Of a stretch of 64,000 nt of DNA, positions 1-49,703 are shown one piece after another (positions within the stretch are counted from its first letter, which is position 1; each line of letters opens with the position of its first letter). The notes beneath the pieces were generated by a model. That model did no database searches. It was not told the DNA's origin and worked only from the letters and a program-made list of their open reading frames with translations. This DNA is from Calvatia gigantea (lineage: Eukaryota; Basidiomycota; Agaricomycetes; Agaricales; Lycoperdaceae): the NCBI GenBank assembly GCA_025093985.1, contig JACAAK010000005.1:1736001-1800000 (forward strand), written 5' to 3'. Position numbers and translations under genes: made by a program.

Positions 1-2712
1 TCTAATCACGAAAACATTGACCTTTGAGACAATTCTCGTTAGGATCGGGATGGACGGCTGAAAGGGTTGCGGACCTTATGGAACCAACGGGGGGACAGAA
101 CGTAACTGGCGGGTAACATGATACACAGTGCAAGAAGATTTATGGGGGGTTGGTATGAGAAAAGTGAATCTGCCTTGACTCTAGGAGAAGGCTTGGCACG
201 GTGCTTAGTTTCTGGAAAAAGTACAGACGCACCCTTCGATAGTCGACACCGCTGTCCTGAACATGGCCTCTGCTGCCGCGTCCTCATTGATGTTGGCAAA
301 GGTATTTGATAGAATCTTGGATGACTTTGAGCCAAAAGAGTATCGTTAAAGAAAATGAAAAGTCGCACAGAAACGAGCACTGTGAGCTAAGTGAGCATTG
401 GGCTCTGAGAAGGTGCAAATACCCTACCAGTCAACAAGAGTGTGTTACTCAAACAAGCGTAAGTGACCATGAGCATAGGACCGAACACCGGATGGAATTG
501 GCCTAAAATAGTGGTGTCGGTAAGACTACGGCCGCAGGGAAAGCATAGGTGCCCACCTGCCCGATCAAATCCACTCGCGTCGAGTCCAAAATATAAGTCA
601 AGCATCCACCATGCAATCGTACTAGAAAAATGTGTTTTTATGGGATGTCTGATAAATTGAGCATACATACCCCGCACCGTAGCTGTAAGATAGCGTGAAA
701 CATCAGAATTTTTCAGCGAAGTTGACTAGATATCATACCTAGCACCATTTCGACTTAGTCTGTATAGGACATGTCAGAAGATAAGTTATCACATGGGAAG
801 AAACTGCTTACGTCCACAAGGCGTACAAAAAGCCACAGAAACAGAACGCCGCAATAAACATTAGAATCATGAATTGCATGAACATAGCCCGAAGTGATAG
901 AACCATCAAGTTGTCTTTCAATGTCACAAACGCCAATCTAGGGGAATAAGTAGGTCAATCAGTGCGATGAAATTGTGGCACACCTGGGAAACATCAAGCT
1001 CGCAATTAATGCTAAAAGGTCGATACCTAGTGTCCGCGCCCAGTATTCTATCTCCTATCAGCGCGGTGTCACTGGGAGGCGGAAGCACGCATACGCTTGT
1101 GATAGACCCCGTACAAGCGAAGGATCGCATAGATACTGTATAGAGTAACTGTTTACTGTCAATGAGGAGAGAAGCTGGAGGCGCCGCGGAACGCACCGAA
1201 TGCCAAATCAAACCCATTCTGCCGAAATCCGTCAGCAAGAATACGTCTGCCAACCGATTCGAATACATACCCACGTGCCTTTGGAATACACTACAAGAAT
1301 ACATTAACGATGAACCGTAGGATATCCCAAAAAACAACATCACCTCTAATACCATGTTCTTGCATTGCCGCGATCTTTTCTAACGAAAAACCAAGTGCAT
1401 ATACCATGAAGATAATCTCAGAGTTGTTTAGTGTGGCGGTATCGCTGTACTCGATGGCGATGACAAATAGTATGAATAATAGTAGGAAACTGAGGGAGCA
1501 CCGGTCAGAGATTAACTCACAGAACCAGGAGGGATCTCACTTCAAGTATTCAAGAACGGAGCGAATTGCAGGGACTTTTAGGCTGCCAATGGGTTAGATC
1601 CTGAAATATAACAAACTTTCAGCTTTACCGATAATGGTCAAGTAAGGGTGCTTTGTGAGGATCATAGAAGTGAATCGGATTCCTCTTGTATGTCTACATG
1701 TCATGTTTTTGGATGTGATCACCCGCCAAAGGGTTGACCGTACTCACATCAGAGAGAATGGAATGGCTGCTCTGAGCCTGATAAACGCATTTCCCGCTGT
1801 AAGTCCCGCTCAACGAATACTGCAAAGGAATGAGGTCGAAGAACTACCCACGACCAAATCGCGTTGATAACCTTCTGGCAGGCAGAACTCCTGATAAACA
1901 TCTTTGCCCTTCCCATAATGGCCATTTCAATGGCGTTCCCTACACGGTTTTCAAGGTCATCATCCCTTTCCTGCTTCGCTTGGGCAATTATTGCAGGATC
2001 AGCGCCGTTATATACAGGCCAAGTGGTCGTAAGAGTGAACGCCAGATGATACATATTACCCCCAAGCTGCCTAAATACGCGAGTGGCCAGAATTTCACAG
2101 AGGGTGGCTCGTGTTCGCGAAACATTGGCAGTCGTCATGTTATCGTCCCTTAGAAAGTAGACGCGGTTCAGCAGGAGGCAAAAAACCACGGACATGTTCC
2201 CGCTTTGTTGAATGGCTGAATATCTTTCGACGAGCGGCCGAACAAGGGAATATGTGAGATCAGGGGCAGTGAGCTGGTTTAAGGTTTATTTCAGCGATTT
2301 CTGCAACGTGATCAAGTTGAGACTAACGGCCTCAAGCGAAAGCGGTGAATCTATCTTTTGTATTGAGGTCATGCACTAACGCGACAAGGCTCTCTGACTA
2401 CGCACCGATGCAGTACTGAAAAGCGAATGACGAATCTGTCAGTATCTGTGCCGACCAATCCTTCTGGCCCCATCCCCAACCTTTGAGCGGGGCTTGTACT
2501 GACCATAATATCCTGGTCCTTGCGTCAGCGTGTACATAACGGATAGCAGGCGGACCGTGGAACATACCGAACGGATCATGTGGATAATTGGGAAAACTTG
2601 GGTGCTGTCTATATCTTCCCTGTTTCTTGGTTGAGTGATCTTTGAGGGTATAGGTGGAAAGAGAAGCTGACGGTCTCAACAGGTGTTGAAGCTCTGGATT
2701 CGATTCTGCCAT
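1..2712 (-). CDS. YVC1: YVC1-type TRP cation channel (3' end beyond the window)
   Basis: Fungal vacuolar TRP channel family (TRPY1/Yvc1), which releases calcium from the vacuole. The gene reads leftwards over many short exons. Conserved blocks appear in family order: LTAPDLTYSLVRPLVERY near 2250; TRATLCEILATRVFRQLGG near 2110; CQKVINAIWS near 1870; TYKRNPIHFYDPHKAPLL near 1670; FMVYALGFSLEKIAAMQEHG near 1390; YSKGTW/NGFDLAF split by an intron near 1250; a hydrophobic segment with LMFP/RLAFVTLKDNLMVLSL near 950; AWWMLDLYFGLDASGFDRAG near 590; FHPVFGPMLMVTYACLSNTL near 470; and SLFSYQPPINLLALCIMLPA near 150. Several hydrophobic helices are visible. The last visible intron is 22..74 and exon 1..21 reads VNVFVIR, so the C-terminus lies outside. 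The start at 2712 (MAESNPELQ) is the only upstream ATG that looks right, but the N-terminal exon is poorly conserved, so the start is less certain than the family. Confidence 0.9.
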
Positions 2713-3352
2713 GTTCGGGGGGCGATGGAAGTGGGAGAGGGAAAGAGTTGTATTTTTAGGGAATGGTAACTTGTTGCATCATAACCATGCTGGGCTTACA
2801 TTAAATTCAAAAATTCGAAGTGATCCTAATTGAACCAGTTTGCAGTGGACACACAACAGCAGGCGATCGAACCTGCAAATTACCCCCCTTCCACCTGTTT
2901 CGTGTTAAGACCAAGCTTACATTCCAACAAGTACTTTAAGAAGGGCAAAAGATGAGTCTGTGTATGCAGTAGTATATCCTACTTGCCTTGACTGGGAAAA
3001 GAATGATGCAATCCCAATCACCTGGTTGATCCAGACTCCCTTAAGCTGACGGCTCACTTGGAAGTTGTCGTTCTGGGAAACTCTGCCTTTGCGCATTCAT
3101 TGACGGTTTGTGTAGGCTGGGGAATGGATCCTGTGGCAATAAGCCTTCATGCTGTGTAACAATGCAGAAGAAAATGCAGAATAAACGCCTTGACTGTTAG
3201 CCTGAAGTGAGCCAGAACGCGTGTAGGCTCGGTTCGTTGTTTGCCCAAATTGACTCTCCGACCTCACGCGTTGTCGCGTCTGTCCATAAAGGCACCTGAC
3301 CTAACATCATACCTCGGTGCACCGTCCTCCTCGTCTCTCTTCGCTATTCAGT
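2713..3352. promoter_or_regulatory. divergent intergenic region between YVC1 and MBP1
   Basis: About 640 bp between two start codons that face away from each other, so it must carry both promoters. I see no convincing coding exon or RNA gene. The stretch before the MBP1 start, about 3290-3350, is pyrimidine-rich, as is common in basidiomycete 5' leaders. Confidence 0.5.
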
Positions 3353-6183
3353 ATGCAGTCGGCATCCAGAATGCCAGGAAACACGAGTCCACCCGTCAAA
3401 ATATATAATGCTGTCTATTCTTCTGTACAGGTATGAGCCTCACGACGATATCCAATTTGTGCTCGTTGACACGGTCGCGTCTCTCAGGTATATGAGTGTA
3501 TGGTCCGGGGTATCGCAGTTATGCGCAGACGCAATGATTCTTATGTCAACGCGACACAAATATTGAAAGTCGCGGGGGTTGACAAGGGCCGTCGTACTAA
3601 AATATTGGAAAAAGAAATCTTACCTGGGAAGCATGAGATCGTGCAAGGCGGATACGGCAAGTACCAGGGCACCTGGTTCGTATACGTTGACCTGAGAAGA
3701 ATATCAAACGGTTAATGATTTGGACTTTACTGTAGGATCCCTATAGAACGGGGTCGTGATATTGCGCTTCAGTACGGCGTCGCCCCGCTACTCTCACCAC
3801 TTTTCGATTTCCAGCCATCGACAAATTCCCTTGGTTCCCTTCCTGTCAGCACTTCCGCCGGTGCAACATCGCCACGTCCTCTTTCTGCTTCTTCCTCGTA
3901 TTCTAACCTCGGTAATACTGGTAACTACGTTCCATCAATCCCGTCCACTCTTGCCCCGCCACCCATCATGCCCGGTTCCGCTCTTCGCCTTCTTAATCAA
4001 GGTCGTGCTCAGGGTCTCTTCACCCCATCGACCTCAGACCTGACCGCAAAGGCACAAAGCTTCAACTCACCCTCACCCTATTACAACTCAGGACTTGCGC
4101 AATCTCCGTTTTCCCAAACGCCGCCCCCTTCATCCTTAAAGAGGAATCGGTCCGAGGCAGATGCCGACGCCATCATGGCATCCGCTCATGGTCTGTCCAG
4201 CTGTCCTGTGAATGTGAATAAATAGTCTTATCATGTGTTCTGTTATTTCTGTACAGATGCTCGGTCATCATCGACAATACTCCAAATTAATGGGGAGGAT
4301 AACCCTTCTCCCGCGAAACGGCTCCGTCGCGACGATTCTCCATCACGTCACTCCGCTTCTCAAACTGAATCCTGGCCAGCATCATCACAAACCCAACCTA
4401 CATCGTTACAGTCAACCCAACAAACCTCCAACGGTCTCTCTCGGCCATCCAGCACGCAATCCATTGCCAATGGGAAGGCTGATAATACTGTAGAAAGCGC
4501 CACCTATGCTATGCGTTTTGCGTCAAAGCCGTCTGTCCCACGTGGTTTAGATCCAACTGCTCCTCTAAAAGACGGTCGACGGGCAGCAGTACTGGCTGCG
4601 ATCTGTCAACGCGACGAACCCGGCCCTATCCTTGACCTCCTCCGTGAAATAGCCTCGGACCCTTCAATAAATGTCAACCCAGGTGTATTCGACATTGATA
4701 CTGTTCTGGATGACCAAGGTCATACCGCACTACACCTCGCCGCGAGTCTGGCCAGACAGCGAGTAGTTGACTCCCTGATAGCAAATGGTGCAGATGTTAA
4801 TCGAGGGAATTATCTCGGCGAGACACCTCTCATCCGTGCGTGTCTGGCGACGCATAATGCGGATCAACAATGTTTCAATGCCCTTGTCGCATCTTTAAAT
4901 CAATCCATACGCACTTTGGATACCTCCAAAAAATCGGTTCTCCATCACATTGTAGCACTAGCGGGTGTGAAGGGTCGGGCCGTATCTGCAAGATATTATC
5001 TCGACCAGATTCTGTACTGGATAGCACAACACCAAGGCGGGGATTTCCGTTCATTGGTAGATTTGCAGGATGAACATGGGGATACGGCACTGAATATTGC
5101 CGCAAGGGTTGGAAATCGGAGTCTTGTAAGAACGCTACTGGATGTTAATGCGAACCGAACATTACCCAACAAACTTGGGCTACGGCCTGGTGACTTCGGC
5201 GTGGAGTCAGAGGTGATATGATACCTCTAGATTATGAACACAGTGCTGATCCATCTCCTAGGAGTTGAGCGGAGGACTAAAGGCTGAAGATATCCTCTCC
5301 TCGTTACGAAGCGGTCCTTCAGTACCAGTCCAGAAGAGCCAAGATGTTATTGCAGGTCCAGAAATTTTCACCCGTTCCTAATCTTCATGCTGATAGCTTC
5401 CTAAGACATAACCACAATGATCCAGAACCTAAGCACGGACTTCCAAGCCGAACTCAAAACAAAACAAGATGCCCTGGACGTGACCCAAGCGCATCTCCGT
5501 GCAGCGACCCGCGAACTCTCCGACAAGCGGAAACAAATTCAGACTTGGCAATCCCGCTGTGCAGAATTGGACCAAATAACCCAACGCGTCCGCAATGTCG
5601 AAAAAGCTCTCTCTGACGAGGATCAATTCGATTGGACGGGACGTACGGATCTTAATGGCAGCGATGCAAGAGAGACTGCAGGACCGGGGTTTCAATATAG
5701 GGGTATTGGGTCAACGATGGTCGGGATTGGGGGTGTAGTGGATATTTCGGTGAATGTTGATTCAGAACCACCGATGCCTGGCGGTGCGGCGGCTGGAGGA
5801 GATAGCATGGCGACTCTGATAAGGCTAAAGAGGATGAAAATTTGGCACCAGAGGATGGAGAGCCTGGTCAAGGCAAGGCTGACGAGTTTGCAGGGCGCAA
5901 GTGCGGAGAAGGAATATCAGTGTAAAAAGATCATTGCACTTTGTACGGGGATACCCATTGATAGGGTGGAGGATGTGAGTAAACATTATCCTCTCGCGGC
6001 GCAAATAACCAATTTGTTTCCCCCACAGATGCTCGAGAACCTGGTCATTGCGGTGGAAAGTGAGTCCCAGGTTGTGGATATCGGTCGAGTGTCAGGCTTC
6101 ATGCAAAAGGTACGGTGCTTCCCTTGTATTCTCTTCCTCGTCTTACGCAAGTTTTTTTCCAGGTACGGGATGGTATCATATGA
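3353..6183 (+). CDS. MBP1: MBF transcription factor DNA-binding subunit (APSES/KilA-N plus ankyrin repeats)
   Basis: Homologue of Mbp1/Res1, the DNA-binding subunit of MBF, which drives G1/S genes through MluI-box sites. Splicing gives eight exons: 3353-3430, 3488-3675, 3736-4190, 4257-5212, 5262-5355, 5406-5974, about 6029-6109 and 6163-6183. All join in frame to a protein of about 813 residues, close to the usual family length. The APSES domain lies in exons 1-3 ([57 protein letters not shown]). A Ser/Pro-rich linker with a KRLRRD basic patch follows. Ankyrin repeats occupy about 4690-5200 ([37 protein letters not shown]). A coiled-coil stretch begins near 5410. No frame break is seen. It converges on PRP4 with a 201-bp gap. 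Confidence 0.93.
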
Positions 6184-6384
6184 TCAGAACGGTTTCTTGT
6201 GGTCGCATCCGCTTTCGTAGTGGACTTAATGTTATTTGTCGTATGTTGGATTTATGTATTGATTACTGTTCTCATTTATTTTACCGAGCGTCACTTATGT
6301 AGGAGTTGGCAATCCCATTATCACGGAACTTCGACATTCCAAAAAATAATGCATACAATAAAAAGATGACTACAAACATAAGGC

Positions 6385-18826: not shown

Positions 18827-21800
18827 ATGGCAGCAGCCGCTGCCGTCCTCTCATCGTCCAAGCCATCGTCCTCCACTTCCTTTAATATGGCAACTCACCA
18901 ACGCATCAATACGGGTGTCATCCCCCCCATGCCATCATCGTCTCGTTCCCCACCACGTTCATCAGCGTCGCCGCAACCCGTTAACGACAACTCTCCCAGG
19001 GGTTTCAACCGCCTTGCTTCGATCGGCCAGAGCATTCGCACTGCGACACGCTCGAAGAAGACTCTCGCTCCAGAACCTGATGAATTTGCCACTGTCACTG
19101 CAAAGACGGTCAAGGGAAAAGGAAAGGAGAAAGTCGCAGTGGAAGAGGTACCCAAAGAAAAGGACAAAATGAACGTTTTCGGGAAGCTGGGTTCCAAGGT
19201 CACTTTCCGTCGAACTCGTAGGGACTCTCTTACTCCTTCTCCCGCACCGACCTCGCAGGATAGATCCTTCTGAGAGCAAGGAAAGAGTTGCTGGATTTAC
19301 CAGCTACATGACACCTTCCCTCAGGTTGGCGTCAATGTCTTCGCCTGCCCTCCATCTGTCATCACAGGCTCTGCCATCACCCAAGTCACAACCCGCTGTT
19401 CCTGCTTCTTCTTCTTCGGTTGCAGGGGTTTTGGTGTCCCCCACCCGGCAACGCACAAGACGAACAAGCCAGCCACATCCCACTGAAATTAGCAACCCCG
19501 TCCCTCTTAACTCAAGACGGGAACGACAGCCTGTTTTGTCCAGAGAGCCCACATATCGTCATCGCTCAACTAAATCCAACACAATAAATCCCTCTCCCCC
19601 TATCCTTATTCCCAGCACACCTCGGCGGAATCCTTCTCGTGAGGTCCATAGTCCTCGCCCTTCTGTCGAGATGGAAAGCCCTCCAGATACCCCTACACCA
19701 GCCCATCGAGGCAGAGGTATACTTACGCCAACTTTGCGTCCTACTACCGCCCATCCGGAGCCTTCCAGCCCTCGAACAGCCCGTCCTACCAGCCCTCTTA
19801 GAGCACGTTCCCCGCCCCACCCCCGTGTTGTGACCCCAACAAACCGAGGTCTGAGTTCCGGTTCCGTAACTCGTCTTCATGCTTCCAGTCCGTCCCCACC
19901 TCCACGGCGCCCCTCTATTGACTTCTACACGGCGTCCGTCGATTGATTCTCCACGCCGACCATCTATCGATGCACCTCGCAGGGTCTCCGGTGAAACTCC
20001 GCATCGATCTTCGCGAGACTCCCCCGTGGATAATCGTACCGAATCTCCGACACCTGTCCGACCCCGCCCTACGTCCCCTCAACAAAGGTCTTATGCCCAA
20101 AATCGCCATTATAATATATCGGCAGCTTCTTTAATACCGCCGTACAACCCTGAGCATCGTGAACAACTTCGGAAAGCTGCATCCATGGTGTGCAAGGAAA
20201 TGGTACGGCCGCCACCCCACATGAATAAATCTGGGCAGGCAGCACGGGATTGGGAAGAGGTCGAGAGACGGCTGCATCCTTTATCTAGATTGGAGCGGGT
20301 TTGGGGTATGAGCAGTATTAGCTCAGCCAGCAGCCTTAATGTGTCGACCTCTGGATTGAGCCCCAGTGGCTTAAGTGCAGCAGGGGAGGAAAGGGAGCGA
20401 CGTGTCTTCTGTGAAGCACTTCGGGATGGCTTTGTGTTATGCCAGTAAGTGTTATATACCCTACTCCTATCCTTTCTGGAGTCCCCCGTCCTGTTGTCGT
20501 TATGCTGACCCTGTGCTTCTAGGCTCATGAACAAGCTTCGCTCGGGAAACGTCGTCCGGCCCGACCCTCGCGAGGACGGATTCGTTAAAACATCGAATGT
20601 CACGAGGTTTCTCGCTGCCTGTGCTTCGTATGGTCTACAACATGAAGACCTGTTCCAGCGTGACGATTTAATTGAGGGTACAGGCGAATCCCTTGCACGC
20701 GTCTCGCATACAGTTACCACTCTCTTTTCCTTCGTCGAAACTCCAGCTCCCTCACGTATCAAGTGGATCAAACCATCTTCCCCACCCTTATCGCCATCAT
20801 CTGGGTTATCATCAGTAGGGCCGTACATGAAAGGATCGTTTGGCAGGGCATCGGCATCAACCCCAAACCTTTTCCCTCAATCCACGTCTCCTACTCCTAC
20901 CTCACCCCGAAAACGTTATAGCCCACCAGCAGGCTTGCCACCTGTGCGTTCGGATAGTTCCGAAGAAGCCGTTAATGTAACACCAAAGGTTCGCCCCGCT
21001 CGCGGATTGACACACAACGACAGCAACATCAGTGTCAACGTTATGGATCCGTCAGATTCGGCAGTGTCGGATGGAGATGAGGAGGCGGAATCAGAGCACG
21101 GGTCAGTTGCTGAGGTGAAGCCTGCGCCTGTGCCCCCTCTACTTAGGCCCCCGCCGAAGTCACCATTTCGTTCACGGCCCGCTCAGCAAGGCCAGGAACT
21201 GCCACAACAACAGCAACAACAAAGGCAACAGCAACGGCAAGCGGTTGATGACAGAGGGATTTCAGTGTGGGTCAAGAATGCAGCTTCTCCCTCAACTACG
21301 ACCGGATCACCTTCCAGACGTATATCCCCTCATACATCGAGATCAGGAGTCGGACTTTCTCGTGTTAACTCTATGGCAGCGGAGTCCACCAGGGCGTCAA
21401 TTGGTGATACGTCGTTCTTAGAATCGCCAATTGGTGTCAGTCCGCCTGGCGAGTATGGCTTCGCTCGGCAGTCTGTTGCATCGAGTGCGGTGACAGATAC
21501 GACTGCGACTACTCAAGTGTCGAGTATTCTTGAAGATCATCGTTATGAGGGAGGAAATAACAAGTTCGGGACCGTTAGGACTATGACGACGGATGTAACG
21601 TCGGAGGTGCCGTCAGTGGGGAGGACGGAAGGTGCCGCCATTGCAGATGAACTGGGGAAGGCTAAGATGCAAACATCGCCGCCTGTGCCACCGCCAAAGG
21701 GGTCGAGAGAGAGGAGGACGAGTGCGACACACGGGCACACGATTGATTTGACCAGGGTCGCGGAGGAACCCGACGATGGCAGTTCCTCAGGCAACAGTCG

Positions 21801-24800
21801 GAATAGGGATCTGAAAGGCAAAGGCAAAGCAGAATCGCCCACAAAGGGGTACGAAGCTGGAGAAGGAGGGAAATACGCTGAGAATCCTGTAGAGAAGGTT
21901 CGCGCGGTGAACCTTCGCAAAGCAAAGTGGCCCGATGACTTTTTGGACGTATTTCAAATGCAAATGCAAAGCTCAGCGTCCTCGTCAGTTGACCCTGAAG
22001 AATCATTGTCGCTGTCTGCTCCATCACCGACCTACATGCGCCCTCCTATATCCCGATCTGTTTCCCCTCCGAAGAAGCTGGCAATAGTGGGTATGGGCGC
22101 AGGGAGACGCATAGATGGGTCAAGTGACTCTGCCCCTCTAGCTCCGAGAAGACCTACGCACCTGTCTAGGCATAGCGTGGACACTACCCCTGCTTCTCTG
22201 GTCTCTGGATCGCCTTCATCAGGGTCTCCAGTGGGCTTGTTGCCGAAGGAATCAATATTAAGGAGAGACACTAATCTAGAAGGAATGTTGGGATCAGGGA
22301 ATCGGGTTATGCTTCGGAGGGCGAGTACGAACAAGAGTCCGTTACCAAATTTGCCTTCACAGCGTGCTGGGAGCAGTCTGTCGGTATCGCGGCATACACC
22401 AGATTCTGAGGGTGATAGTGGCGACGTGAGAGATGTGAGTAGGGAGAAGAGAGGAAGTGGGGGCAGCGGTCCAGTGCCCGTACCGTTCCCTCGTAGGTCC
22501 TCTGGTGGAGATCATTCTGGCTCACCTTCACCATCACCTCGGATGGCAAGTCGTAACGGGCATTGCTGAAAATGCTTCGGGATCTGCGGATTCATTAGTA
22601 AATGCGAACACAAGCGAGAAGGCACCCTGGCCGCCAAGGGGGAGATTCCAAAGCGAAATCAATGGTAGTTCGAGGGTAAAGGGACGGCCGAATTCGTACG
22701 ATGACCAAGGAGCCAAGCCGCTGAGGTTGAGGTTTGAGAGTATGGTGAATCTGGGAAGGACAGACTCAGCAATGACAAGTGCGAGTGATTTGATAACGAG
22801 GGACTCAACGGATGGAAGCGCAGTGAGGAAAACGCTCGTGGTCAGAGAGGAAGGGAAGCCCCCAACCCATTTTGTGAGTTTTCCCTCAAACTCCCCCATT
22901 TCTCCCCAAATACAGCCTTTATAGCGTATTTTTACCTTTGCATCGATCGCTGACCTACGTTTTGGGTTTGCAGCGACTTGGAGGTTGCATTGGAAAGGGC
23001 CAGTTTGGAAGTGTGTATATGGCGCTCAATCTCAATACGGGTCAGACTGTTGCTGTGAAACGGATTCGGCTGGAAGGGTTAAAGGAAGATGAGATTTCAA
23101 CTTTGATGAGGGAAGTTGATATTGTCAAGCGTTTGTCACATCCAGGAATTATCAAGTACGAGGGTATGGCGCGTGATGAGGATACACTGAGCATAGTCTT
23201 GGAGTGAGTTCCACTTCGGTTATATATATCGTAACTTATCCCTTCTCCAAATCGTTTCCGCATTAGGTACGCCGAGAGTGGATCGCTCGCACAAACCCTT
23301 AAGGCATTCGGGAAGCTGAACGAACCACTGGTAGCGAGCTATGTCGTCAAGATTCTTGAAGGGCTGCATTACCTTCACCAGAGCGACGTGGTCCATTGTG
23401 ATTTGAAAGCCGCGAATATTCTGACGACGAAGAACGGCAACGTCAAGTTGTCCGACTTTGGTGTGTCACTCAACCTTCGTGCGATGGGACGCCAGAATCA
23501 GAATGACGTCGCTGGAACTCCTAATTGGATGGCTCCCGAAGTTATCGAGCTTAAAGGCGCTTCTACGAAGTCCGATATCTGGTCACTGGGTTGTACAGTG
23601 GTCGAGCTGGTAACTGGGAGGCCCCCGTACGCCGAAATAACCAATAGCATGACGGGTAAATCTTAATATATTTCCCCTGTTTTGTGCGGAGTACTAAATT
23701 GAGCTGCATCCAGTTATGTTCCACATCGTGGAGGATAAGATGCCACCAGTTCCCGAAGGATGTTCGCCGCTGTTGCAGAATTTTTTGGAGCAGTGTTTTC
23801 ACAAGGAACCGTCCGAACGGCCAAGCGCAGAGCTTTTGTGTGAACACCCATGGTTGAAAAAGAATTGGGTTGCTCTCAAGGTAGGCCCCACGACGTGTCA
23901 AGTACATTTTGGGACATTGACGTAGTACGACCTAGGATCTGCGACCTCAGGACAGCCTCCCATTCCTCCGTCGGGTTAGTGCAGACTTGCAGAAGCCTGA
24001 CATGGTGCGGTTCCTATCCAAGTTGGACTTCCCCGAGTCACCGACCGCGAACGAATTCCCGAGAGACGATATCACAAACTCACCACCAGTTTCACCTATA
24101 TCGGCTGTTGGAAGACGAATCTCGAACGCTTCCATACGCCCGCCCCCCTTGGACGCTGAATTCTCTCCCAGTGAACATAACTTTGTCAAAACTACATTCA
24201 GCAAACGTGAGCCAACCGTATCAATCTGTACGACATCGGCGTCGTTAATTAATATTACTCTTCCTAGCTGTAACTTGTCGCGTCTGTCTTGAGAACGTCA
24301 AGAAAACTGCTGTTCTGTGCGCCAAATGCAGTTTAATCTCACATTCCAAATGTGCACCTCACGCACCACCGACTTGCGACCTACGATCACAACTTCTCCT
24401 ATACGCCCACTATGCGGAGCAAGGGAATCCCGCAAGTCTATATTCGAATCCGATACTGGATTATTACGATATTCCTCGTGCCCCGGCTGCGATGTCAGAC
24501 GTACCCTACATCGCGCGTGATACCCCTCGCTCGAGCCTTGATACCCAACCATCCCAACCCATTCACCACACTACAGCGTCGCACGTGGGTTCTCCACCGA
24601 CCGCTTTCAAGTTTATGGCAGCCTTCAAGCGGTCCCGGTCCAACCTAACCAATGAGGCCGCCAATTCCAGTGTCCTAGCTTCTGAGCCTGACCTTCCTGA
24701 CTCGAGGACAGCGCCTTTAGGCGCTGTTGCTGACAAGCCCAGCGAAACACACTTCAACGACAGGACTCCAGTTCCACGCAAACGTCGGGCGTCAGTGTTG

Positions 24801-25190
24801 CAAAAACGGTCGAAGGAACGACCGCGGTCATACACGAGCAACAGCACGGGTGTCAGCAGTCTACGAAGCGCCGCCACAGCTCCCGAAAGTATCAACAGTA
24901 ACACTCAACCAGAGCGTATGTCACAGCTTTCGAACGTGGTCAATACTGGGACCTCGTCCTCGCAGGAACGCAACCCGAACGGTGATCATTCCAAGGAACA
25001 AGGACGGAAGAAATCAGCTGCGGCCAACGCTGTATCCTCGAACGGGATGGTGTCTGATACAGACACAAACGACTTGGCAGAACTCAGCACGGCTTCCTCC
25101 ATTCTTCCCGGATTTTTGTCACTTGATACCAACCGACGACCAAAAACGAAACGCGATTCAAAACAATCCAGTAATTGTATTGTACAATAG
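18827..25190 (+). CDS. CH domain + Cdc15/SepH-type kinase + C1 zinc finger + CaaX box
   Basis: A long multidomain STE-type kinase resembling Cdc15/Cdc7/SepH of the septation network. After a Ser/Pro-rich N-terminus with RRPSID repeats near 19905-19980 comes a calponin-homology domain (20390-20750: CEALRDGFVLC/QLMNKLRSGN, FLAACASYGLQHEDLFQRDD). A long disordered linker follows. The kinase spans about 22976-23880: GGCIGKGQFGSVYMA, TVAVKRIRLEGL, VVHCDLKAANIL (Cys replaces the HRD Arg), LSDFGVSLNL, GTPNWMAPEVIELKG, and PHPxLKK-like end CEHPWLKKNW. A C1-type finger at about 24170-24370 fits HX12CX2CX10CX2CX4HX2CX7C. The protein ends NCIVQ, a CaaX-like box. CH and kinase parts join through a 49-nt intron at about 22551-22599 and another before RLGGCIG, both in frame, so this is one gene. 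Two +1 breaks (19268-19269, 19923-19924) lie in the disordered N-terminus. Start: first ATG, 18827. Confidence 0.88.
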
Positions 25191-43802: not shown

Positions 43803-46800
43803 GGTTATGGACCCCGGTGTCGCGACCTATTGAACCCGCTCATTCGTTTATACCCTCCGACGTTATCCTATTCTTTTCCCGCCGTTTTCGTTACCCCTGC
43901 TATACTAGCACCTTCGAGCCGAGCAACCTCTCTTAGACCCACGTTATGTCCCAAGCTAGCCAGGCATCCAAGGTAGACTCTGATGGTCGCCAAGGATCCG
44001 CCGGTGGTAGACTTTCGTCGCCATTCGGACAACCTGAATCCGCAGACTTAGGTCGCGAGAGTCAGACCGGACAGTCCAATACCAGGACTATGTCGGCGGC
44101 TTCGGCAGGCGTTTCGGTCAAGCACGAGGAGCCGAGCACACCACCTAGGGGGAAGGCACCGTCGAAACCCAACAAAGTCCATTGGACTCTTAATGTAGCT
44201 CACATCGAGCCTAGTCGTTATCAATACATGATGAACCTCCCCGTTAAACTTAATGTGTCGAACTACAAGATATGGGTCCAGCAGATGCGGACTCAATTCC
44301 GAATCTTTGACGTTTACGACTACTGTACCGGTTCTGTTCAGGGTGACACCAACAACGCAGAACACGGTGAGAGATGGGCTCGCACAAACGCTATTGTCTG
44401 CGCCATACTCTCAGCCAACATGGTGGAGGATATCCAGATACAATTGGGTTATCACGAAATCGCTGCCGATATGTGGGGGGAAGCTCAATCTATATTCGCG
44501 GGACAGTCTATGATGGATTGGACTCTGCTCCTGAGCACCCTTATCACAACGAAATACGTCGACGGCGAGGATGTTATCACACACATCACTACGATGAAGA
44601 CACTACGTCGAGACATTGCGGCTATTAAACGCGACATCGGAGACGATTTTTTCGCCTGTATCCTGCGCCTATCTATGCCACCCAACTGGAGCTACGTATT
44701 CGCTGGCCTACCTGAAAACTACACAGCCACTGAAATCGAACGTCGTATTCGCGAAGAGGATGGTGTTCGAAAGAATCACCAGGCTACTGCCGCTCTCGCA
44801 TACCGCTCTATGGCCAGGAACAACAACAACAATAATCGGCGAAATCAGACTCAGCAACCTGGTCAACCCTTCTGCACGAACTGCAAGATTTCGGGTCATG
44901 ACTGGAAGGACTGTTGGTCGAAAGGGGGTGGGGCTGAAGGTCAAGGACCTCGCCAGAGGAAGAAGAAGAATAAGGGGAAACAAGGAGGGAACTCACGTCA
45001 CAGAGCTAATCAAGCTCAAGCTGATGAAACTATGGACGACAATCGATCTACGGCTAGTGGGGGGAACTCTCTTGCTGGGGACTCAGCCTATATGGCTACC
45101 ACCAGCTCACAGCCGAAATCGGACACTTGGATTCTCGACAGCGGTGCGACGGCACACATATGTAACCAACGATTGGCATTCACAACATTCACACCTCGCA
45201 ACGATATTATTGGAGGTATCAATGCCGACGGCCCTCAGCTACATTCCACAGGTGTGGGGAACATTGAGCTCCTCGTCACCGTGAAAGGCCGCCCTGCTCG
45301 CGTCGTCACTCTCCTCGATGTCAAATACTGTCCCAATGCTCGCGACAACCTCATTTCTGAGAGCCGAATGGATCGAAAAGGCCTCGAAATTCGAAAGAAG
45401 GGGGGATTGGTCCAAATTAACAAGAAGGCCGAAATCGTTATGGAAGGACATCTCCAACGAAATGGCCTCTACCACCTCACCTGCTCTTATCCCCTGGAGA
45501 CTTCACCTCCATCTTCGCTAGCCTTCGCTGCTATCTCCTCTGACATATCGTCACTGGATCTCTGGCATCGCCGACTTGGGCACCTCAATGAGGAATACCT
45601 CCGACACCTAGCTAAGCATCAGATGGTCTCCGGGCTTGATCTCAAGACCTCGGATCGACTCAATGCATGTGCAGGGTGTGCCCTCGGCAAGCATCCACAA
45701 GCTCCCTTCCCTCAGCAAGCTTCGCGATGAGCGAAACGACCCCTTGAGCGCCTTCATGCTGATCTCCAAGGCCCTTTCTCCACTTCTATTGAAGGGTACC
45801 ACCATGTCCTCATTGTCGTTGACGACTTTTCGAGGATGGGCTGGAAGATCTTTCTTAAGCAGAAGAGCGATGCTCGACAACACCTCCGAGACCTCATCAC
45901 CTCTCTCGAGAACCGAATTGGCAACAAAGTGGTCTATTTTCGATCAGACCGCGGTGGCGAATTTACAGGACATGCACTCAAGTCATACTTCAAGGACAAG
46001 GGTATCACCCACGAGATGTCAGCTCCACACACTCCTCAACAAAACGGTGTAGCCGAATGATTCAATCGTACTACTCATGAGCATGCCCTCGCCATGTTGA
46101 AGGAGGCTGGTATGGCTGATGGCTTTTGGCCTGAAGCTCACCAGTATGCTAGCGATGCTCGTAATCGCAGTCCAACCAAGACACTCAACCACATCACTCC
46201 TTACCAGGCATTCTTCAACGAGAAGCCCAGTGTCTCTGCCTTCTGAATTTTCGGATCACGCTGCCATGTTCGCACACCACATGAACTTCGACGAGGAAAG
46301 CTTGATGCCCACTCTATTGAAGGGGTATTCTGTGGCTTCGATCCTGCCTCCACTTCGTGGAAGATATGGATCCCTTCGAAGAGGTCATTTCAGGTATCTC
46401 GGGACGTCATCGTCTATGAGACAGTGAACCACCCAGGTATTGATACATCTATGCCTCCTGTCACAAGTGAGGGGGTGAACATCGACGATCCCACTCATTC
46501 TCGGAGTCATCCTAACTCCATCCCTATACCTGAGGAGACTGGTTCGCCTCTCCCTCGTTCATCTCCTATACCTTCCGATCCTCCATTCACCACTCCTCCA
46601 TCCATTTCTGATCCTCACCCAGCTCCTTCGACTGCTAATCCCAATCCTATTCCTTCCTCCATTCCTAATCCATCTGAGCCTCAATGAACTACCCGAATCT
46701 CTCGACCATCATGGATCAAACAAGCCAACGAGGAACAAGCAGTTAAGGAATTTGAAGCCAAGAAACAGTGTCAGAAAATACGTGAAGCTCGAGCTAATCG

Positions 46801-48391
46801 TCTCAACAATCCAACCTCCAAATACCAACTACCTCCTACAATTCCTGAGCACGAAGCTGTCGAGCACACTCCTGAAGGCGACCTCGCTCACATTGCCTAC
46901 CTAGCTGCCTATGGCCCAGTCATCCCTCAGAGCTTTGAGGAGGCTATCACTGGACCTGATGCCGACAACTGGTGGAAAGCTATGAGGGAAGAGATATCTC
47001 TTCACTCTACTCGAGGAACCTGGAGAGCTGAGAAGATGCCGAAGGAGAGGACTGCTGTTGGTTGTTGATGGACCTACGCAATCAAGTTCGGACCTGAAGG
47101 AGAAGTACTCCGATACAAGGCTCGTCTCGTCGCCCAAGGTTTCAATCAGATCCCTGGTCTCGAATATGATGATACCTTCTCTCCAACCACTCGTCTGGAG
47201 TCAATCAAGCTCATCCTTCACCTATCCGCTACCCTTGGTTGGGAACGTGCTCAAGATGATGTCACTGGTGCTTTCTTACACAGCAACCTCGACTGTATCA
47301 TCTACATGAAGCAACCACCTGGCTTTGAAGATGGTACCAACAGGGCGCTACTACTCATCCGAAGTCTGTATGGACTCAAACAAGCTGCCCGTCTCTGGTA
47401 CAAGTACATGGTTGAGCGTCTTACATCTATCCACTTCAAACAGCTCCACACCGATAATGCGGTATTCTATCACAAGCTGGAGTCTGGTACTACCATCATC
47501 GCCATCCATGTCGACAACATGTTCAGTACTTCATGCTCACAGGATGAACTCAAGCATGTTCACTCCCAACTTCACAAGCTCTTCGACATGAAGGAGGAGG
47601 ATCCGAATTGGCTCATGGGATTTCTTCTCATTGAGGACCGTCTAGCTCAAACCATTTCCATCTCTCATTGCCAGTACATCGATACCACTCTCAAGCGATT
47701 TCATATGCAGAACTGCCATCCTACATCGCTCCCACTCGATCCTGGCTGTAAACTCTCTAAGGCTGATGGACTTCAGACCAAGGAAGAGAAACAGCAAATG
47801 GCCAAGACTCCCTATCGTGAACTTGTAGGAGCTCTCACCTGGATATCACTCATCTCTTGCCCAGACATCGGATTTGCTGCTTGCTTCCTTGCTCAATTCA
47901 ACTCCAACCCTGGACCAAAGCACTGGAAGGCTGCCCAGCATGTACTCCAATACCTCGCTGGTACTCATGATATTGTCCAAGTCTTGGGAGGAAAATCCAA
48001 GGATAATCGTCACCTGACCCTTACTGGCTATTCTGATGCATCTGGAGCTGAGGACCCTGACGATCGTCGAGCTGTCACTGGTTGTGTCTTTCAGATGGGT
48101 GATAAATCTATTATCACTGTCAGTAAGAAACAGCCTACAGTTGGGGACTCATCAACTGAGAGGGAATACATGGCTGGAGCTTACACTGTCAAGTATGGAT
48201 TATGGTTGGTTCAACTTCTAGCTGAACTGGAGATGCCCGTTTCACTTCCCATCACTGTCTATATGGATTGCACCAGCAGTATCGATCTCACCAAGGACTC
48301 TCGTTTTCATGGAAGGACCAAGCACATAGACATCAAACATCATTTTATTCGTGAACGTGTTTCTGATGGGACCTTTACTATCTGTTATTTA

Positions 48392-48603
48392 CAGTAAGGG
48401 ACAAAACCGTTCCAATGTTTTGAACTTCTCAGAAGATCAGCTCATATCTCAAGGACTACTGTGGCTGTGCACTTCCTAATTTAATTGTAGATAGTCCAGT
48501 ATCTTATCTAATCATATGCAAAGTATGATTATGTAATCCTTTGTTTTAGGGGAGTTATTAATTAATTAATATTTTAAGTGCATTGGAACAGTTTTGTCCC
48601 TCT
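48392..48603 (+). repeat. left inverted arm of the Tc1 element
   Basis: About 212 bp. Both its outer and its inner end carry a 21-bp motif (AGGGACAAAACYGTTCCAATG) in opposite orientation, so the arm on its own looks like a small inverted-repeat unit. AT-rich core with a repeated TTAA block. Confidence 0.85.
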
Positions 48604-48629: not shown

Positions 48630-49703
48630 CTAGTACCTGGTATAAGCTCCCTTGGCCTGTAAAACTGCCTGGACCCTCCTAGGCATACTCTCTATCAGAT
48701 TCTGACACACTTCTGGTTCTATGTCATCCCACTCCTTTTGTATCCTCTCCCATAGGGTATTCATGCTATCAGGAGGAGTATCATACTCTCCCAGCTTATT
48801 CTTGAGGTGAGTCCAGAGATGTTCAATGGGATTAAGGTCTGGAGACTGTGGGGGCCATACCATAACCTCCAATTCAGACTCATCTAGCCAGTTTGTAGCC
48901 TTTTTGCTCTTGTGTTTGGGGTCATTGTCCTGTTGGAAGACCATATCCTCCTCATTCTTCCCATACCACCTGATGCTCCTCTTTAGTTCATCCCCCAAAA
49001 TTTGAACATAAAGGTCAGCATCCATCTTCCCTTCAATTTTAGTGGCAAACCCCACTCCATCCCACAGCATACAACCCCAGATCATCACATTTCCTCCACC
49101 AAACTTGACTGTTCCCTCAACCAATCTATCATTCAGCCCCTCTCCTGCCTTTTTCCATACCCAAACCCTTCCATCTGATCCAAACCGATTGATTTTGGAC
49201 TCATCTGTCCAAATAACCCTCTTCCAGTCCTCCAGGGTCCAGTTAACATGTGCTTCTGCCCACTCCAACCTTTTCCTCCTATGGACAGCAGTAAGTTTAG
49301 GTCGTTTCCGCTTGACTACAGCCTTCATTCCAGCTCCTCTGAGTGCCCTGCGCACTGTTTTGGTGGATACAGGCTGGGCAATAACATTTTGAAGTGATTT
49401 GGTGACTTGGGAGGCATTGTCAGCCTTGCGAGAGGTGATGAGGCGAACAGAATAGTGGATATCAGAGGGAGAAAGTTTAGATGGGTGGCCACTAACAGAT
49501 TTGGAAAGTGTTGATCTATGTTTGGAGCGAATCCTAGAAATAGTACTGACTCCCAGACCAGTAATAGAAGCAATATGATGAGCAGATTTCCCTTGGTCCA
49601 GGTAAGAGAGGACTCTATTGGTCTGAGTAGAGGAAAGAGAGCGCATATAGTTGTAAAGGTATAGTGGGGGAGTTAATTTGCACCTGAGAATAAGCACATC
49701 CAT
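48630..49703 (-). CDS. Tc1/mariner transposase, intact
   Basis: 357 residues in one uninterrupted exon. N-terminal helix-turn-helix DNA-binding region (THxxN-like LSSTQTNRVLSYLDQGKSAH, HIASITGLGVSTISRIRSKH, GHPSKLSPSD) and paired-type second half (TVRRALRGAGMKAVVKRKRP). The catalytic triad is complete: WTDESKINRFGSDGR, FQQDNDPKHKS, then PDLNPIEHLW; 34 residues separate the second Asp from the Glu, so DD34E, the canonical Tc1 signature. The first ATG is at 49703; a second Met 19 codons later (MRSLSSTQTN) is an equally natural start. The stop is at 48630-48632. No frame or stop lesion is present, in contrast to the surrounding copia gene, so this copy may be active. Confidence 0.95.
   Translation of the reverse strand: MDVLILRCKLTPPLYLYNYMRSLSSTQTNRVLSYLDQGKSAHHIASITGLGVSTISRIRSKHRSTLSKSVSGHPSKLSPSDIHYSVRLITSRKADNASQVTKSLQNVIAQPVSTKTVRRALRGAGMKAVVKRKRPKLTAVHRRKRLEWAEAHVNWTLEDWKRVIWTDESKINRFGSDGRVWVWKKAGEGLNDRLVEGTVKFGGGNVMIWGCMLWDGVGFATKIEGKMDADLYVQILGDELKRSIRWYGKNEEDMVFQQDNDPKHKSKKATNWLDESELEVMVWPPQSPDLNPIEHLWTHLKNKLGEYDTPPDSMNTLWERIQKEWDDIEPEVCQNLIESMPRRVQAVLQAKGAYTRY

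Follow-up and report, generated by a model that had tools for sequence, protein, structure and literature searches.

Introduction

Among the closest described systems to the gene analysed here are the Cdc15/Cdc7/SepH kinases, the catalytic domain of which is N-terminal or nearly so in SepH, Cdc7 and S. cerevisiae Cdc15. The gene in question occupies positions 18827-25190 of a 64,000-nucleotide stretch of the Calvatia gigantea genome (contig JACAAK010000005.1, positions 1,736,001 to 1,800,000 of the forward strand; hereafter referred to as the window), and its kinase sits after a long N-terminal part containing a calponin homology (CH) domain. An armadillo-like C-terminus, with the kinase at 211-460, is described for C. 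albicans Cdc15 (PMC5995815). According to the classifications of their authors, the kinome tables of two yeasts give one CDC15/cdc7 and no second (PMC2078597), the kinome presented for A. nidulans has a single STE11/CDC15 kinase, SepH (PMC3591445), and that of F. graminearum a single Cdc15 (PMC3245316). Five “Cdc7 homologs” without a C-terminal tail are reported for Rhizopus oryzae, and are read there as a Cdc7 predating the gain of the tail (PMC2699053). In a table for Rhizopus microsporus, protein 266182 bears the label “Kinase with actin-binding calponin homology domain”, and cdc15 (232829) is listed separately (PMC7482071); beyond this one table label, no description of the whole CH-kinase-C1-CaaX family was found in the open-access papers searched.

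A first-pass annotation of the window labelled the gene a Cdc15/Cdc7/SepH kinase, with the additional domains as a feature of its lineage. We arrive at a different reading, with moderate confidence: the gene would belong to an ancient family of fungal STE kinases, as a paralogue of SepH/Cdc7/Cdc15 rather than the septation kinase, and its product would be farnesylated, held at the membrane and perhaps connected to the cortex by its CH domain.

Results

A single gene encoding CH, kinase, C1 and CaaX elements

The gene begins with an ATG at 18827-18829, ends with a stop codon at 25188-25190, aligns from end to end with a protein from Macrolepiota (P0001) and lies, with all its features, on the + strand. 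Exon-by-exon rebuilding gave six introns with ordinary borders (20445-20522, 22874-22973, 23204-23266, 23656-23713, 23881-23935 and 24207-24267). A Pfam search with the window protein placed three domains above their cut-offs: CH (PF00307, 35.9 bits, cut-off 26; 20395-20730, interrupted by the first of these introns), a STE-family protein kinase (PF00069, 244.2 bits, cut-off 31.7; 22974-23856, with introns 23204-23266 and 23656-23713) and C1 (PF00130, C1_1, 35.3 bits, cut-off 26.5; 24176-24377, interrupted by intron 24207-24267), with the His/Cys zinc ligands of the latter present. The last four residues of the protein, CIVQ, form a CaaX box (25176-25187), preceded by a basic stretch (25146-25175). 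The first-pass annotation had recognized all four elements, which are confirmed here, with coordinates correct to some tens of bases. Ahead of the CH match lie a long low-complexity N-terminal region (18827-20145) and a stretch (20146-20394) that, by comparison with the uninterrupted CH domain of P0221, may hold the first CH helix in its first part, followed by a Ser-rich insert. Directly after the kinase, a motif with near-invariant alignment columns (DLRPQDSLPFLRRVS, 23936-23980) is similar in relatives from Pucciniomycotina and Glomeromycota.

By sequence comparison, CH, kinase, C1 and CIVQ are parts of one gene and one protein, as had been proposed, because relatives carry CH, Pkinase and C1 together. 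Querying protein databases with the CH region gave 216 matches, 120 of which were listed (visible protein sizes ~889-2830 aa), and 106 of these 120 contained all three domains; we take the named proteins among them to be from Agaricomycetes. Searches with the C1 region (70 found, Pucciniomycotina among them) and with the kinase region (1495 matches, 120 listed), both with visible sizes of ~471-1498 aa, extended the pooled set to 235 relatives. The order CH, kinase, C1 was the same in all 141 relatives with the three domains. The CH profile matched 164 of the 235 relatives, and four parts (CH profile, kinase loop, C1 pattern and Cys at −4) were found together in 89 of the 103 relatives of at least 1500 aa and in 127/235 overall, many of the latter set being fragments. 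From its N- to its C-terminus, the window protein thus comprises a CH domain, a linker that is long and flexible, a non-RD kinase, an atypical C1 domain and a flexible, basic tail ending in CaaX.

Distribution of the family

The kinase-region search reached Glomeromycota, Ustilaginomycotina and Tremellomycetes among the matches listed, and the layout spans Agaricomycetes, Ustilaginales and Glomeromycota. The suggestion that it was peculiar to the lineage of Calvatia was thereby ruled out. Six names, including Macrolepiota, were checked in NCBI taxonomy, the placements of the other named entries being presumptive, and many metagenome entries are nameless. The set from outside Agaricomycetes comprised 30 proteins, 29 of them named and one from a fern record; by Pfam, all 30 contain Pkinase, 24 contain C1 and eight contain CH, whereas our CH profile, C1 pattern and Cys at −4 were found in 10, 25 and 23, respectively. 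In the kinase tree, the fern entry (P0218, filed under Adiantum nelumboides) clusters with sequences of the Exobasidium type; it is probably a fungal contaminant.

The CH profile, built with one Kalmanozyma seed and no Glomeromycota seed (some of its seeds are among the 235 relatives), matched 7/7 Glomeromycota proteins. The search table gave CH, Pkinase and C1 for six of these seven, and four end in CVIM, the other three being partial or having a different ending. In the Kwoniella protein (Tremellomycetes, n = 1), CH was found by profile only (85.7 bits) and C1 by pattern only, with neither in the search table, and an Exobasidium model has C1 and CaaX without CH. A 22-bit CH remnant in Phenoliferia P0215 (residues 235-292) was the only one among the 15 Pucciniomycotina proteins. 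The CH domain is thus probably ancestral and was probably lost in Pucciniomycotina. The C1 pattern was missing from two Naganishia models and from those of Mrakia and Phaffia, the last two being short (470 and 567 aa). Several entries are filed under one species name in Lactarius (P0160, P0166, P0170, P0152, P0157 and P0163) and in Mycena (P0008, P0070, P0131, P0033, P0146, P0175 and P0187), pointing to additional copies specific to these lineages, some of which lack the C1 pattern or CaaX.

Features of the domains and of the C-terminal tail

The kinase has a complete set of catalytic residues (glycine loop, VAVK, helix-C Glu, HCD, DFG and APE, with the catalytic Lys, Glu, Asp and Asn present) and looks active from its sequence. 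The catalytic loop reads HCDLKAAN (23394-23417), and the HCD that replaces HRD, noted as unusual in the first-pass annotation, was confirmed at 23394-23402. It is a trait of the family and not a local oddity, being the first catalytic-loop match in 217/235 relatives (HCN in five, others in four, none found in nine).

The C1 ligand spacing matches the pattern used in 188 of the 235 relatives, and the loop between the inner Cys pairs is 10 residues long in 187 of these 188 and nine in the other, with no conserved Gly or Gln and with near-invariant Lys/Arg. Typical, diacylglycerol-binding C1 domains have a loop of 13-14 residues at this point, with Gly and Gln. On its sequence, the C1 of the window protein is therefore of an atypical, short-loop type that lacks the loop expected for diacylglycerol binding. 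The earlier proposal of C1 as a lipid-placing element stands as regards the domain itself, whereas diacylglycerol-type binding is weakened by the short loop; an acidic lipid or a protein is favoured as the ligand. Weak matches to C1 domains of the Protein Data Bank (PDB) were headed by RacGAP1 (E 0.0005), followed by PKC delta, which aligns with three extra residues, RASSF5/Nore1 (E 0.008-0.009, without a gap in the loop) and Raf-1. The CH domain alone matched calponin alpha (1h67, E 2.9e-12), with Vav-3 (3e-8) and Vav also similar.

The CaaX box is under strong constraint. Among 181 near-complete relatives (the remaining 54 of the 235 were set aside because they had no loop motif, no C1 pattern or fewer than 100 residues following C1), a Cys was found at −4 in 166, compared with 0-2 occurrences at any one of the 29 remaining positions among the last 30. 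The last residue was Q in 137, M in 19, A in four, S in four, I in one and G in one, with Lys/Arg ranking among the most frequent residues at positions −8 to −18. A CaaX box in which X is mostly Q or M suits farnesyltransferase, and three loci of the genome match the prenyltransferase repeat family. Membrane anchoring of the kinase via its tail is well supported at the level of sequence.

An AlphaFold2 model of the R. irregularis relative (54-row alignment) had a mean predicted local distance difference test (pLDDT) score of 60.3 and a predicted template modelling (pTM) score of 0.41. CH and C1 exceeded a pLDDT of 90, the linkers and tail were below 50 and disordered, and the kinase ranged from 75 to 96, except for values of 42-56 at residues ~471-480, 501-510 and 541-580; Foldseek returned only kinases among the 50 matches listed for this model. 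The domains of this relative are thus predicted to be islands on tethers.

These data bear on a second view of the CH and C1 domains, as regulatory elements rather than anchors, with CH folding onto the kinase as in Vav, C1 binding either the kinase or a GTPase of the Ras/Rho type, as C1 does in Raf or RASSF5, and CaaX alone targeting the membrane. The resemblance of CH to Vav-3 and Vav besides calponin, the early appearance of RASSF5/Nore1 (weak but gapless in the loop) and of Raf-1 among the PDB matches of C1, and the non-RD loop, which suggests a different form of control, are all consistent with this view. Nevertheless, the linkers modelled by AlphaFold2 are long and of low confidence, such that packing is neither shown nor excluded at this pTM, and Sporobolomyces and its kin lost CH but kept the kinase. 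We consider purely regulatory roles rather unlikely, and retain a membrane- and cortex-directed kinase as the preferred reading.

A separate SepH-like gene in the same genome

The same genome contains a second kinase gene, which is SepH-like (contig C67, ~2452560-2457780, + strand; ~1062-6280 of the extracted locus L019). Its kinase begins close to the N-terminus, contains HRDIKGANIL and is followed by helical repeats, a layout and motif that we take as marks of SepH. In Pfam searches its tail matched ARM_ARMC5 (E 1.3e-7), ARM_PUB (0.005) and Arm (0.006), all below the Pfam cut-offs, and this armadillo-like tail was found once in the genome, at this locus. The window protein had no armadillo match at E 1 in the Pfam search. 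An exon-by-exon genome search for a second close copy of the window gene gave 116 matches; the best long ones, at two loci that look like GCK kinases (L008 and L009), were 39-40% identical, and shorter exon matches elsewhere reached 46-53%, including the SepH-like gene at 46 and 51%.

A FastTree phylogeny was estimated for 54 kinase domains, comprising 48 chosen from the 235 relatives, the window kinase and five other kinases of the same genome, with no ascomycete sequence. The window family formed one clade of 49 tips (support 0.967), with the SepH-like gene outside it; a node uniting the two was also strongly supported (0.991), the SepH-like gene being the nearest of the five other kinases. 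Kinase identity between the window protein and a Rhizophagus relative was 167/254, whereas that between the window protein and the SepH-like protein was 106/215, the latter having been compared without part of its activation segment (215 positions). The SepH-like and Rhizophagus kinases shared 115/215 residues, and the window kinase and a GCK kinase of its own genome 93/234. The window kinase is nearer to that of Rhizophagus than to its SepH-like counterpart, and these identities suggest that the window family and the SepH-like gene split before the divergence of Glomeromycota and Basidiomycota.

The septation label of the first-pass annotation is not upheld by these comparisons. If the window gene were nonetheless the mushroom septation initiation kinase, an orthologue of Cdc15/Cdc7/SepH with CH, C1 and CaaX added, the database names of its relatives (“Cytokinesis protein sepH”, “STE/STE11/cdc15” and “Protein kinase of the Mitotic Exit Network”) would be apt, and the SepH-like gene is indeed its nearest neighbour among the five other kinases. 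Moreover, kinase position is no clean divider, given where the kinase lies in C. albicans Cdc15 (211-460; PMC5995815). Such an identity is nevertheless improbable: a separate HRD kinase gene carries the armadillo-like tail, which was found once in the genome, HCD, C1 and CaaX all occur in the window protein, which gave no armadillo match, and the split suggested by the identities would be older than the parting of Glomeromycota and Basidiomycota.

Frame changes within the linkers

Three frame changes were found in the window gene (near 19255, near 19930 and at 22550-22598), all within low-complexity linkers, leaving every domain intact. The first two, both in the N-terminal region, had been missed in the first-pass annotation, which held all the parts to be joined in frame by short introns. 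Two short introns, of 41 bases near 19218-19258 and of 40 bases near 19850-19889, were considered by eye and rejected, because P0001 (Macrolepiota) and P0002 (Agaricus) both code through these sites. Two introns had also been proposed to link CH to the kinase; the one before RLGGCIG, at 22874-22973, was confirmed (GTGAGT ... TTTGCAG), whereas that placed at 22551-22599 (correctly 22550-22598) has a poor donor, GTCGTA, and aligns with coding sequence in P0001 and P0002. It is more likely to be coding sequence with a frame break than an intron, in a part of the protein where the length of relatives varies.

The three frame changes are probably assembly errors, because the SepH-like gene, at two points of its conserved kinase that accommodate no intron, and the open reading frame (ORF) pieces of a fimbrin-like locus (L002) of the same genome also change frame. 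Three frame changes without good introns might alternatively mark a decaying pseudogene carrying real mutations. This is very improbable, given the confinement of the changes to linkers, the similar changes at the two other loci, which suggest assembly indels, and the 87.5% identity of the kinase to that of Macrolepiota (224/256). Hardly any credence can be given to the mistaken joining of a CH gene to a neighbouring kinase gene, a possibility raised by consecutive split models in Blastosporella (P0114/P0129) and Astraeus (P0107/P0140), as P0114 stops inside the kinase at the position of a window exon border, which is typical of annotation splits, and in Agaricomycetes, Ustilaginales and Glomeromycota both domains occur together in single models.

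Other features of the window

The window also contains an ankyrin-repeat ORF (4226-5218), and Copia-type retroelement ORFs and a Tc1/mariner-type transposase ORF (43937-48394 and 48633-49703).

Discussion

These checks leave an old, conserved and little-noticed kinase family of unusual layout, for which the septation reading is most likely wrong. From the layout we infer the following mechanism. The CaaX cysteine would be farnesylated, and the farnesyl group and basic tail, perhaps with basic residues of C1, would keep the kinase bound to a membrane. From the far end of a long tether, the CH domain would connect the kinase to cortical actin or to a cortical regulator, such that substrates would be phosphorylated only where membrane meets cortex. 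The replacement of the HRD arginine by Cys would imply activation by localization, by a partner or by domain release, and probably not by activation-loop phosphorylation. The actin link is the weakest step, as F-actin binding varies among single type-3 CH domains.

Several observations weigh against this reading. The gene on C67 is assigned to SepH by its layout and motifs, its armadillo matches fall short of the Pfam cut-offs, and its kinase was compared over a reduced number of positions. The comparisons were made within sets containing no ascomycete sequence, drawn from the matches listed (up to 120 per search), and database names for members of the window family include sepH, cdc15 and mitotic exit network. 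CH was absent by profile from 14 of the 15 Pucciniomycotina proteins, and a single type-3 CH domain is weak evidence for actin binding. Fifteen of the 181 near-complete relatives lack the Cys at −4, some of them being partial or odd gene models, and the three genome loci that match the prenyltransferase repeat family may be of the farnesyl or of other types. Finally, the low-scoring residues 541-580 of the R. irregularis model (pLDDT 42-56, at a pTM of 0.41) are those of the catalytic and activation loops.

A broader proposal can be made tentatively, with rather less assurance than the identity of the gene itself: that of an undescribed ancient family of farnesylated, non-RD SepH paralogues coupling membrane (through CaaX and a basic, atypical C1) to the actin cortex (through CH), retained both by mushrooms and by mycorrhizal fungi that are mostly aseptate, absent from the ascomycete models that served to establish septation signalling and concealed by the database names sepH and cdc15, the ancestral job of which family would have been cortical rather than septation. 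If so, the protein named as the septation kinase in several mushroom genome records is a different one, and septation pathway maps built on those names would be wrong at the top. Given the age of the family, a branch would then have been lost from the yeast and Aspergillus systems.

The window protein can be compared with the Cdc15/Cdc7/SepH kinases through the SepH-like gene, its nearest own kinase in the tree and similar in the kinase domain (106/215), but it has HCD rather than HRD and possesses CH, C1 and CaaX with no armadillo match, and the tail of the R. irregularis relative is predicted to be disordered. In Mucoromycota, R. microsporus 266182 likewise joins a kinase to CH, as far as its table label goes. 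The five R. oryzae homologs, as described, resemble the window family in being Cdc7-like kinases without the tail, and may belong to it; the view that Rhizopus Cdc7 lacks a tail would then be a mix-up of paralogues. The prenylated kinases GRK1, GRK7 and LKB1 also have a CaaX box but belong to other kinase groups and have neither CH nor C1. If the present reading holds, the window family, from mushroom-formers or plant symbionts, would be a further and rare instance of a conserved CaaX box on a protein kinase itself. Raf/KSR kinases, Vav and RacGAP1, the C1 of which was the first PDB match, have C1 and/or CH adjoining a signalling domain, but differ in catalytic family or in domain order, so the likeness is one of domains only.

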